From: an uncultured bacterium
Lineage (GTDB): Bacteria; Cyanobacteriota; Vampirovibrionia; Gastranaerophilales; Gastranaerophilaceae
Direction: 5' to 3'
Length of the DNA stretch: 64,000 nucleotides
Assembly: GCA_902792085.1 (NCBI GenBank)
Contig: CADAYE010000013.1
Location: forward strand, 1-64,000
The position numbers were made by a program, and so were the translations under genes. The stretch's first letter is position 1. Every line of letters begins with the position of its first letter. The notes beneath the pieces are model-generated. The model made no database searches. It was not told the DNA's origin and worked only from the letters and a program-made list of their open reading frames with translations. Shown one piece after another: positions 6,207-51,081 of the stretch.

Positions 6207-6255
6207 ATATTCTTTTTGAAATTCTTCATCTTTTAATTGTTCTATAATAAATTTA

Positions 6256-6338
6256 GGTAACTATATAGGAGTTACCACAAAAATAGGTTAAAATCAGCAC
6301 CCACCCCAACCCTCCCTCGTGAGGGAGGGAGAAATTTG
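6256..6338 (-). repeat. MITE-like element, copy 3 (one end only)
   Basis: The same terminal sequence as in copies 1 and 2 (GGTAACTATATA, GGAGTTACC on the plus strand), followed by the GC-rich hairpin CCCTCCCTCGTGAGGGAGGG. The other terminal repeat is missing. It lies immediately against the antitoxin reading frame. Confidence 0.7.
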
Positions 6339-6430
6339 TAAGTTGGGCTTTCAGCCCAACAATAATGGGTTTTGGTAGAAATCATGACTTAAATGTTACC
6401 CCCTTTCCTGAAATTAGGAGAGGGAGATAT
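6339..6430. repeat. Small palindromes in the gap before glyA
   Basis: GTTGGGC-TTTCA-GCCCAAC forms a perfect hairpin (about 6343-6361). A second GC-rich stretch, CCCCCTTTCC ... GGAGAGGG, follows at about 6401-6424. Both belong to repeat types seen elsewhere in the window (16757-16773 and 42427-42507). The rest of the 337-nt gap, up to the glyA leader, holds no ORF. Confidence 0.5.
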
Positions 6431-9890: not shown

Positions 9891-10421
9891 CGGTAGTAAT
9901 TGAGAGATTGATAATTTCTACCTGTTCATTTCTTTTCTTTTGTTTGCGATGCAAAAGAAAAGAAATGAACCAAAGAAAAGAAAACTTCGCTGATTACAAT
10001 ACCGCCTACGGCGGCATAAGACTGCTAACGCAGTAATATGTGTTTTTGCCTTTCAGGCAAAAATCTCTTAGCACGGCTAAAACTACGCCGTGCGCTTAAC
10101 CCCTCACCCTACCCCTCAGCCATACGGCATACAGGCTCACGCAACTCACAAGTTCGTTGGTTCGCTTTGTATCCCTTTGGGAGAGGGAGCAGTGGTAGGC
10201 GAATTTATGAGCCGTACAACTGCGGGTGAGGGTAATATCAAAGGCGCCGTAGTTTTAGGCGCCTGATTGATTTTTGTCCATAAGGACAAAAATGTATGAA
10301 CATTTTATACTTATATCTTATGCGCGGAGCGATGCCGTCAAGCATTGCAGTTAAATAGCGTATTTTCTCTTTCTTGGTTCATTCTTTCTCTTTTCATTGC
10401 AAGAAAAGAGAAAGAATGAAC
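9891..10421. repeat. Composite of nested inverted repeats in a 766-nt gap
   Basis: No gene is credible between 9767 and 10532. A 19-bp perfect inverted repeat (GTTCATTTCTTTTCTTTTG) spans 9924-9970. A GC-rich block at 10099-10232 starts CCCCTCACCC and ends GCGGGTGAGGG. CTAAAACTACG arms flank that block (about 10077-10087 and 10248-10258). A second 19-bp perfect inverted repeat (GTTCATTCTTTCTCTTTTC) spans 10377-10421. The entry TTATCGGTAG at the left also begins the repeat at 63902, so this is a family. Confidence 0.7.
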
Positions 10422-15857: not shown

Positions 15858-15871
15858 TACAAAATCAATTA

Positions 15872-15958
15872 TGTCATCCTGAACTTGTTTCAGGATCTCA
15901 CATAGAACATTATTGAATATGTATTATAAGGAGATGCCGAAATAGATTCGGCATGACA
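15872..15958. repeat. Dispersed palindromic repeat between rplK and rplA
   Basis: It starts TGTCATCCTGAAC and ends GGCATGACA. Internal hairpins CCTGAACTTG-TTTCAGG and GCCGAA-ATAGA-TTCGGC are visible. Relatives occur at 42947 and 43989 (CCTGAAC/GTTTCAGG type). Confidence 0.7.
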
Positions 15959-40687: not shown

Positions 40688-41596
40688 ATGACTGATATTA
40701 AGATAACCAAAATGCACGGATGCGGCAACGACTTTGTTTTTATGGATTACGAGGAATACATAAAAACGGGAATGACACTTGAAGAATTGTCAAAATGCCT
40801 CTGTGACAGACATTTTGGAATTGGTGCAGACGGACTTATTATTCCTGTCCCTTATGACGGAGATGATGCCGATATTGAATGGCACTATTACAATTCAGAT
40901 GGTACGACTGCTCAGATGTGCGGAAACGGAATGAGATGTTTTGCAAAATATGTTTATGATAAGGGTTTAGTTAATAAAAAATCATTTTCCGTAAAAACAC
41001 TTGCAGGAATTAAAAAGCCTGAAATTCTTGATAATGGTCTGATTAAAGTCAATATGGGCAAACCTATTTTGAAAGATGAAGAAATTCCTTTTTGCTACCT
41101 TTCCCCTCGCCCTTTGGGAGAGGGGGCACTTGCATGCGAGGTAACGAGCACTGCAAATGCGGGTGAGGGTAAATACACAATTACAACCAAAGACCGGACT
41201 TTTAAAATTACCCCTGTATCAATGGGGAATCCGCATTGTATAATATTTACGGATAATACACCGCTTGAGATGGCGAAAAAATACGGACCAGAACTTGAAA
41301 AGCATCCGTATTTCCCGCAAAAAACCAATGTTGAATTTGTAAAAGTGATTTCAAATAATGAAATTGAGATGGCAGTATTTGAAAGAGGCTGCGGAATAAC
41401 TCTTGCCTGCGGAACAGGTGCGTGTGCAAGCGTTGTTGCAAGCGTTTTAAATAACTTAACAGATAATAATGTCAAGGTTAACTTACCCGGAGGAGTTGTA
41501 AATATTGAATGGCAAGGCTCTAAAGATAATCCGAATCACGATATATTTTTAATCGGACCTGCTCAATATACTTTTAATGCAGATTTCATGTTGTAA
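40688..41596 (+). CDS. dapF: Diaminopimelate epimerase with an in-frame repeat insertion
   Basis: Converts LL- to meso-diaminopimelate for lysine and peptidoglycan. The acid/base cysteines are C78 (MCGNGMRC) and about C240 (LACGTGACAS). Both halves of the epimerase fold are complete. At 302 aa it is about 25 residues longer than usual. The excess is one block at residues 136-162 (LSPRPLGEGALACEV, then TSTANAGEG), encoded by a dispersed GC-rich palindrome. It lies in a variable loop between IPF and the strand before SMGNPHC, so function is probably kept. GAGAGG precedes the ATG. Confidence 0.93.
   Translation: MTDIKITKMHGCGNDFVFMDYEEYIKTGMTLEELSKCLCDRHFGIGADGLIIPVPYDGDDADIEWHYYNSDGTTAQMCGNGMRCFAKYVYDKGLVNKKSFSVKTLAGIKKPEILDNGLIKVNMGKPILKDEEIPFCYLSPRPLGEGALACEVTSTANAGEGKYTITTKDRTFKITPVSMGNPHCIIFTDNTPLEMAKKYGPELEKHPYFPQKTNVEFVKVISNNEIEMAVFERGCGITLACGTGACASVVASVLNNLTDNNVKVNLPGGVVNIEWQGSKDNPNHDIFLIGPAQYTFNADFML
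41101..41169. repeat. GC-rich palindromic repeat inside dapF
   Basis: It starts CCCCTCGCCC-TTTGGGAGAGGG and ends GCGGGTGAGGG. It is the same type as the blocks at 10099-10232 and 42427-42507. Reading frame is preserved. Confidence 0.8.
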
Positions 41597-42003: not shown

Positions 42004-42417
42004 ATGACTTTAGCAAAAGCAGCCGTAACAGGCATAGTATACAGAGAACCAAAAACAGGATATACTCAAAACAATGTTGCAGTATCGTCGTTTGTAATGA
42101 ATATTGGCGAAGGCGGAGAAGAAACACTTGTCAGAATAATTTCAAAAAGACAGGCATTATCTGATGTAATCGAAACATTGTCTAAAAACCAAAAAGTTTT
42201 GGTCGGTGGAAGATTACAAACCGGAGTCAGCAAACTTGATGACGGAACAGAGAAAAAAGTTTTTGAGATTGAAGCATCATCTATTGAACTGATGGGCGGA
42301 AGTTCAGCAGGTTCAGAAGTTCATCAGGACGGTGATATCCTTAGTTTTGGCGATATGGATTCATCAGGCTCATCAGAAACCGAAGTTTTGATGGATGATG
42401 GTGAAATTCCGTTCTAA
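42004..42417 (+). CDS. ssb: Single-stranded DNA-binding protein
   Basis: The OB fold covers residues 1-100 (AKAAVTGIVYREPKTGYTQN, VLVGGRLQTGVSK). An acidic Gly/Ser linker follows, and the tail MDDGEIPF is the protein-interaction tip that recruits replication and repair enzymes. It is 137 aa. AAAAGGAAG precedes the ATG. It lies between rpsF and rpsR as usual. Confidence 0.95.
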   Translation: MTLAKAAVTGIVYREPKTGYTQNNVAVSSFVMNIGEGGEETLVRIISKRQALSDVIETLSKNQKVLVGGRLQTGVSKLDDGTEKKVFEIEASSIELMGGSSAGSEVHQDGDILSFGDMDSSGSSETEVLMDDGEIPF

Positions 42418-42426
42418 ATAAACTTT

Positions 42427-42507
42427 CCCCTCGCCCACAGCATCAATAAAGTGGGAGGGGGATGAATTTCTTAATAAGCGAAGCGAATTTAGAAATTCGG
42501 GTGAGGG
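42427..42507. repeat. GC-rich palindromic repeat between ssb and rpsR
   Basis: CCCCTCGCCC to GGGTGAGGG, with an internal GAATTTCT/AGAAATTC inverted pair. It separates two ribosomal operon genes by 231 nt. Confidence 0.75.
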
Positions 42508-42648
42508 AATTTCCTGAAACCAAAATTTATAACTCCTATGACACTTATTGTCACTTCCCCATAAGGGCTGCAGGGTATAAATATATAGTATGTAGGTTGG
42601 GCTCACATGTCCGACAAAAGTAATAGGGCTAGAAAGGCAATTAAAAAC

Positions 42649-43920: not shown

Positions 43921-44052
43921 AAAAAAGCGAGAATTTTAAGATTCTGAAATACTCCGTTAAAATTACCATATTGTATGGTCGGGGCGAGATCCTGAAACAA
44001 GTTCAGGATGACAGTATTATTGGCATTCAGAATGACAAAATTCTCGCTTTTG
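43921..44052. terminator. Bidirectional terminator stem split by a palindromic repeat
   Basis: AAAAAAGCGAGAATTTT (43921-43937) and AAAATTCTCGCTTTTG (44037-44052) form the stem between converging genes. The 99-nt interior contains ATCCTGAAAC/GTTCAGGAT and ends CATTCAGAATGAC. Confidence 0.7.
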
Positions 44053-50080: not shown

Positions 50081-50150
50081 TTTTTAAGTTTAAATAGCAA
50101 AATTTTAAAGGTATTAAGAATATTTATCAATCAAAAATAAAAATATTTCT

Positions 50151-50342
50151 GGCAATTATATATTATTTACCACAAAATTTTGGCAAAATGGTTATCCCTA
50201 ACGGATAATCACCCACCCAAATTTCTAAATTTCACATTCTGTTCAATTCTGTTCAATTTGAAATTTCTCCCTCCCTCACGAGGGAGGGTTGGGGTGGGTG
50301 CTGATTTTAACCTATTTTTGTGGTAACTCCTATATAGTTACC
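50151..50342 (+). repeat. MITE-like element, copy 2 (fullest copy)
   Basis: 192 nt with both inverted ends (start GGCAATTATAT, end TATAGTTACC), an internal GGTTATCC/GGATAATC hairpin and a CCCTCCCTCACGAGGGAGGG palindrome. Flanks ATATTTCT and ATATTTTT suggest an 8-bp target duplication. It fills most of the 269-nt gap after comM. Confidence 0.72.
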
Positions 50343-50349
50343 ATATTTT

Positions 50350-51081
50350 TTATTTATAGAACTGTTTATTAATGTATTTTTTATCAATTCTCTCATACCA
50401 CTTTTTAGTGCGTTTTTGATTAAAATCTTTCTGCATAAAATCCACATATTGAGGATAGTCTATTCTTTCATCCGCAAGTTTCTTTATTGCGTATTTTTGA
50501 GCAGAGTCATTTGTGTCCATTTTTTTGAATTTAAGTTTTTCATAAAACGGTGTAGATTCTTTATACGCAACAAGAAATACATCAGAAAATCTTTCCTTTG
50601 ATGAATCCAAAACTTTTAACAAAAGTTTTTTGCCTACATTCATCCCCCTATATTCCTGACTTACAGCAAGTCCATCAATGTATAGAGTATCTTTATCTCT
50701 CAGGTGTTTGCCTAAATCCATAACTCTTGAATATATTGCACCAACCAATTTTTGAGAACTGTTTTTTATAAGAATTACCGTTGTATCTCTGTCTTTGAAA
50801 TACTTTTTGTAATCTTTTATACTTGATTCAATATAATCATCATAAACATCTTTTTCCAAGGTTGGTTTACGGCACTTTTTCCAAAACGGATGAGAGGATG
50901 TATTTGCGAATATATCAAGGAAAAACTCTCCGATATTTTTGTAAAAACATTTCTTATACGATTTTGAATAATCTATTTCACTGCAATACAAATTTCCCTT
51001 TGATGTCCTTATTTTAAAAGGTTTTATCGGGCAATTAAGCGATGAAAAACTTATTGAATTTTTATAATTATTTATTTGCAT
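50350..51081 (-). CDS. GNAT-family acetyltransferase-like protein, 243 aa
   Basis: The N-terminus MQINNYKNSISFSSLN carries the lineage F-tag. The GNAT core is in the middle: VILIKNSSQKLVGAIYSRVM, then LAVSQEYRGMNVGKKLLLKVL with the acetyl-CoA loop R-G-M-N-V-G-K. FYEKLKFKKM closes the fold. Substrate unknown. No Shine-Dalgarno is visible. TAATAC ends 6 nt before the ATG, a weak match to the leaderless pattern. It ends 8 nt from the MITE. Confidence 0.82.
   Translation of the reverse strand: MQINNYKNSISFSSLNCPIKPFKIRTSKGNLYCSEIDYSKSYKKCFYKNIGEFFLDIFANTSSHPFWKKCRKPTLEKDVYDDYIESSIKDYKKYFKDRDTTVILIKNSSQKLVGAIYSRVMDLGKHLRDKDTLYIDGLAVSQEYRGMNVGKKLLLKVLDSSKERFSDVFLVAYKESTPFYEKLKFKKMDTNDSAQKYAIKKLADERIDYPQYVDFMQKDFNQKRTKKWYERIDKKYINKQFYK

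Follow-up and report, generated by a model that had tools for sequence, protein, structure and literature searches.

In-frame palindromic repeats in conserved genes of a Gastranaerophilales genus

We found that the dapF gene of an uncultured bacterium of the Gastranaerophilales (GCA_902792085.1, called G000 here, its sister genomes being coded G002–G027) carries a copy of a dispersed palindromic element in its reading frame, and that the element is in frame in about 12 conserved genes altogether, a number that is a lower bound, genic copies having been sought by similarity and in selected stretches. It is highly probable, in our judgement, that these are non-autonomous palindromes of about 78 nt belonging to one Gastranaerophilales genus, which spread in a transposition-like way and survive in frame in tolerant protein loops that are reused by other palindromes and swapped between species.

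Results

The palindromic element within dapF

The window analysed is a stretch of 64,000 nt from a genome of 1.92 Mb in 39 contigs; among named assemblies, those closest to it come from Gastranaerophilales (Melainabacteria) of the rumen and gut. The gene dapF, for the essential enzyme diaminopimelate epimerase, lies at 40688–41596 on the + strand as one open frame of 302 aa (TIGR00652 DapF, 270 bits), and is single copy, with one match in a search of the whole G000 genome. The covariance model of the element matched positions 41093–41170 (+) with 78.7 bits, the dapF copy itself being in the training set. The original prediction of an in-frame palindromic repeat at this place was confirmed: the insert comprises 24 residues (138–161, nt 41099–41170, peptide LSPRPLGEGALACEVTSTANAGEG), and its GC content is 60% vs 36% in the remainder of dapF. 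Hairpin 1 (41103–41125, +, CCCCTCGCCC-TTT-GGGAGAGGGG) was recognized from sequence and folding, and hairpin 2 (41126–41160, +, GCACTTGCATGC...GCACTGCAAATGC) from sequence, folding and compensatory changes in the stem. The right outer arm is found at 41161–41169 (+, GGGTGAGGG); the left outer arm, which reads CCCTCACCC in full copies, has degenerated in the dapF copy.

Alignment with close relatives, which had been proposed as a check, demonstrated that the segment is absent from them. The DapF proteins of four near sisters (G006, G021, G022 and G024) are 275 aa long and have no insert; their identity to the G000 protein is 91–94% over residues 1–135 and 86–97% over residues 171–302. At the same loop, the dapF gene of G018, a genome of another lineage, contains a diverged copy of the element (59.7 bits, this copy being outside the training set of the model), and the DapF proteins of G002 and G015 contain a different insert. 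The junctions of the genic elements are not clean and the codons at their flanks differ too, so the insertion into dapF need not have been a single simple event.

The catalytic cysteines C78 and C241 were invariant in the 36 DapF proteins compared, in agreement with the earlier statement that both cysteines and the frame are intact. The AlphaFold (AF2) model of DapF had an overall pLDDT of 88 and an intact fold, with TM values of 0.75–0.85 to most solved DapF structures, and the insert (138–161) was the only stretch of at least three residues with values below 50. Between G000 and G006 the pN/pS of dapF was 0.034/0.333 (about 0.1), similar to that of pairs without the insert. These results fit a tolerated loop extension, predicted to be disordered, in a functional enzyme. 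For the DapF of G018 (locus L012), pN was about double the value seen in a comparable pair with similar pS (0.151 vs 0.076).

The repeat family

The number of places in G000 that matched the repeat was 18 by BLAST of the dapF stretch (17 of them other copies), 32 with the consensus and 71 with the covariance model. The consensus, CCCCTCACCC..CCCTCTCCC..GGGAGAGGG..hairpin 2..GGGTGAGGGT, folds into a three-way junction (−48.4 kcal/mol, z −7.3). In 17 copies, 84% of the cells were paired vs 37–50% when the partners were slid, and two-sided changes were seen in 21 cells vs 7.7 in shuffles, all of them within hairpin 2; the covariation exceeded every shuffle and slide control. Full copies have terminal inverted repeats in the form of 9-bp outer arms, with 89% of cells paired, and sub-families (L052, L064) retain the hairpin although its stem differs in sequence. 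One and the same family was found between genes (L041, L042, L044) and in frame within genes (dapF, priA, rpe and others). The Rfam scan of the 64-kb window detected one tRNA only, and the repeat matches no Rfam family.

Two further intergenic copies had been proposed in the window. That at 10099–10232 was confirmed with slightly different limits (10099–10235, +, 61.6 bits, 79% over 63 nt), its hairpin 1 being broken by a further palindrome. The one at 42427–42507 did not hold as a close copy and stood as a distant relative, since its ends are in common with the element and its middle differs; this diverged sequence, at 42417–42508 (+) between ssb and rpsR, scored 14.2 bits (E 0.075) and its fold had a z of −2.7. 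A weak relative of the element (27.2 bits, E 1.2e-5) is located at 50211–50299 on the − strand, within a longer dispersed repeat. A dispersed repeat of the form TGGCAATTATATATTATTTACCACAAAATTTTGGC ... GTGGTAACTCCTATATAGTTACC was observed at 730–890, 6243–6340 and 50138–50354, with up to 100% identity over 99 nt between copies; it has inverted ends and is MITE-like, and its 50 kb copy encloses a CCCACCC/GGGTGGG palindrome. A second palindrome family, the GATCCTGAAACAAGTTCAGGATGAC type, has intergenic copies at 15867–15910 (an inverted repeat) and at 43975–44018; it gave 40 pattern matches in G000 and 0 with the reversed-pattern control, and its relatives sit in the loops of mfd and pgeF. Several intergenic copies of the element, as seen from the flanks of L041, L042 and L044, are embedded in a longer composite that also contains palindromes of the GGCGCCGTAGTTTTAGGCGCC and TTTTTGTCCATAAGGACAAAAA types.

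Other genes carrying the element

The proposed search for other genes encoding a PRPLGEG-type peptide yielded further in-frame copies. The G000 genes with the element are dapF, priA, a cdhD-type corrinoid gene, a PD-(D/E)XK nuclease gene, rpe, a TatD-linked radical-SAM gene, mfd and pgeF, and a short form is present in the phosphohexomutase gene; in sister genomes it was found in mfd (at a second site) and in the genes for phosphohexomutase, pflA, nadB and an Xaa-Pro-type aminopeptidase. Curated models identify priA, rpe, pflA, nadB, pgeF, the cdhD-type gene, mfd, the PD-(D/E)XK gene and the phosphohexomutase gene as hosts. Two of the six frames of the consensus are free of stops, one antisense and one on the sense strand, the latter (the PHP frame) encoding the peptide PHPxPLPxGEGAVVGEFxSRTNAGEG. 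The long genic copies are read in this PHPxPLPxGEG..NAGEG frame, except that in pgeF, which is read from the reverse strand; the short form in phosphohexomutase uses a frame other than PHP. In pflA (pyruvate formate-lyase activase) of G009 (L163) and G026 (L162) two copies of the element stand in tandem, both in frame.

Some model matches with apparent N-terminal inserts (dtd-like, pheS-like) were dropped, as they look like upstream ORF extensions. An ORF of 501 aa (L059:903–2405, contig C22 of G000) has an abundance of peptides from several palindrome families (NNLSEGEVAVVGDSRTNAGEG, DNVTLNLIQGLTP, VIARSVSDAAI and LLHSVRNDN); it matched no family and was dropped as a conserved gene carrying the element.

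Empty, decayed and refilled loops

For the element-bearing genes, alignments revealed sister orthologues without the insert, and the loops of the sister proteins were empty, filled by the element, occupied by a decayed copy or filled by another palindrome. At site A of mfd the element is present in G006, G017 and G027 and decayed in G023; G000, G020 and G022 have a tandem of two other palindromes at this site, and G013, G021 and G024 are empty. The cdhD loop holds the element in G000 and G022 and GTCATTGCGAGC-type repeats in G023 and G024, and the G022 gene seems to keep a remnant of a GTCATTGCGAGC-type repeat beside its element. In mfd, cdhD and pgeF the loops that take up the element also hold unrelated palindrome families, and these other loop-filling families are dispersed themselves (40 and 10 exact pattern matches in G000, reversed controls 0). 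Seven genes were aligned over 2,179 common columns, and all indels of at least 6 residues were at element sites, barring a terminal frame break in G020 mfd; these genes had been chosen because they carry the element, so the reuse of loops is partly an ascertainment effect. The rough chance of five independent second insertions in the same windows was 1.6e-5, a value that is only indicative in view of this choice of genes and of second inserts that were not all proved to be palindromes.

Insert sharing and the species tree

The concatenated tree gave the grouping (G000,(G006,G021)) with full support and placed G024 elsewhere. Against this species tree, G000 and G024, the pair sharing the priA insert, were joined in the priA tree (0.998), and G000 and G022, the pair sharing the radical-SAM insert, were joined in the radical-SAM tree (1.0). 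Such sharing suggests, on the evidence of these gene trees, an exchange by recombination. Beside the mfd loop, G021, in which the loop is empty, differed from its sister G006 at 30/135 and 14/135 sites, and further out at 14/315 and 25/525 sites; next to the loop, the sequences of G006 and G000 are almost identical. Adjoining the dapF insert, G000 shares a longer strand with more distant species, the corresponding strand of its sisters being shorter, and the divergence between G000 and G006 is raised beside the insert (9/15 codons on the left, then 2–4/15). From these alignments we infer that the local patterns of divergence in mfd and dapF are recombination tracts.

Distribution of the element and search for a mover

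The peptide search of the order matched 8 of 286 genomes, all in this genus, and that of the phylum matched 7 of 386, six of which belong to the genus and one, a weak match (E 8e-4), to another genus of the family. With the covariance model, 38 of the 46 genomes of the genus were matched, at 0 to 71 copies per genome. Searches of plasmids with the dapF DNA and with the peptide gave no match. Genes of the Y1_Tnp (RAYT-like) type were found in 21 of the 46 genomes and loosely track the copy number; genomes bearing them were richer in copies (Mann–Whitney p 0.002; Fisher p 0.017 for at least 20 copies), these statistics ignoring kinship. A search of 10 Y1_Tnp loci for the element turned up a single match, partial and weak (16.9 bits), located at the end of a contig (L040), and a Y1_Tnp gene was not found in the copy-rich genomes G006 and G024. 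We do not claim Y1_Tnp (RAYT) as the mover, since its genes are not flanked by the element and were not found in two copy-rich genomes. The Y1_Tnp gene of G000 (L039, G000:C22:80099–80434) has GTAGACTTTAGTCTACC palindromes on both sides, the flanking palindrome being of the GTAGACTTTAGTCTAC type; these GTAGACTTTAGTCTACC palindromes are probably the REP of that gene itself.

Discussion

The observations reported here are best accounted for by a non-autonomous family of about 78 nt that is found in essentially one genus and has one frame without stops on its sense strand. Its copies would spread by a transposition-like process, and most of them sit between genes. Genic copies would survive only when inserted in the open frame within a solvent-exposed loop that tolerates extra residues; there they would be translated as a disordered peptide that does not abolish the enzyme, with an effect that may be nearly neutral. 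The few permissive loops would then be reused by other palindrome families, and alleles with and without inserts would be swapped between sister species by homologous recombination, which may be the cause of the conflict with the species tree.

An alternative, which we regard as unlikely, is that the elements were gained once in an ancestor and deleted in most sisters. Such an origin would suit the presence of inserts at identical sites in distant species (dapF of G000 and G018; mfd of G006, G017 and G027) and of decayed remnants at some sites (mfd of G023, pgm site 1). However, the synonymous divergence within shared inserts is mostly far below that of their flanks (0.034 vs 0.340 in priA; 0–0.06 vs 0.49–0.59 for the other-family inserts of mfd), so that the shared copies look younger than the split of the genes, or else the DNA itself is constrained. 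Loss alone cannot give different families in one loop, and the confinement of the element to one genus, with one weak match outside, also speaks against an ancestral gain. Much less likely still is that the host has co-opted the peptide or the mRNA hairpin for a function, as a linker, a localisation tag or a regulatory structure. The recurrence of the frame and of the GEG...NAGEG motif, the hairpins that stay foldable, and the identity of the mfd inserts of G017 and G027 while their flanks differ synonymously are in its favour, but the peptide occurs in unrelated enzymes, close sisters have unrelated peptides or nothing, the peptide is predicted to be disordered in DapF, and, within the insert of priA, amino-acid change is no lower than synonymous change (pN 0.053, pS 0.034). 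An assembly or binning artefact can practically be set aside: the genomes are metagenome assemblies, in which repeats are typical points of breakage and chimerism, yet the frame is kept in more than 10 genes, the dapF copy lies mid-contig within a normal operon, and same-site inserts in separately binned genomes (priA of G000 and G024, pflA of G002, G009 and G026, the PD-(D/E)XK gene and mfd) speak against it for the class.

The resemblance to the protein-coding palindromes of Rickettsia, which the original prediction had drawn across unrelated lineages, is supported by our data. Rickettsia palindromic elements (RPEs; Ogata 2000, 2002) are in-frame insertions in many Rickettsia genes (reviewed in PMC2229807, PMC10969869). 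Like them, the elements described here are dispersed palindromes found in intergenic DNA as well as in frame within conserved genes, with several families per genome, a conserved peptide frame and a host protein that is apparently functional. They differ in belonging to another phylum, in folding into a 78-nt three-way junction instead of the 105–150 nt stem-loops of RPEs, in the reuse of Gastranaerophilales loops by different families and in the conflict of insert alleles with the species tree. In-frame WPE-like inserts of Wolbachia are known in addA, addB and priA (PMC4224334), which are the same kinds of gene, priA included, although the lineage is different. Intragenic REPs are frequent in DNA repair genes, and different REPs occupy approximately the same recB site in two Xanthomonas species (PMC3733652); palindromes inside DNA repair genes are a feature in common with our family, the recB case is a precedent for loop reuse, and CGTC-like GTCATTGCGAGC repeats are present here too, G023 and G024 having them in their cdhD loops. 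The element is, however, longer than GTAG/CGTC REPs and has neither tag at its ends (CCCTCACCC / GGGTGAGGG); we rejected membership of those super-families on the lack of the end tetranucleotide and on a RAYT-like gene that has a different palindrome at its sides. The in-frame ERIC, Correia/NEMIS and other MITEs resemble the element in being short, non-autonomous and joined to genes through an open frame (PMC2229807), but our element is without TA ends or target duplication in evidence, and its sequence and lineage are different. By analogy, the element would belong to the protein-coding palindromic kind and work like RPEs, WPEs and intragenic REPs.

Protein-coding palindromes have until now been tied mainly to obligate intracellular alphaproteobacteria (Rickettsia, Wolbachia), with scattered intragenic REPs elsewhere; for Gastranaerophilales or Melainabacteria, we found no reports of them in the open-access literature searched, only unrelated matches. 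In the present gut lineage of Cyanobacteriota they are abundant, and dozens of related genomes have one and the same loop in filled, empty, decayed and replaced states, so that the gain, loss, tolerance, horizontal spread and possible function of RPEs become testable by comparison. They also carry a warning, as loop lengths and signature peptides in Gastranaerophilales proteomes can be traces of selfish DNA. More tentatively, and with somewhat less than even confidence, we propose that a few tolerant surface loops of housekeeping proteins may be landing sites shared by several unrelated palindrome families, and that homologous recombination may pass insert alleles around between gut species living together. 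If this is true, selfish DNA would be the driver of a type of protein loop variation that changes fast and can be swapped.
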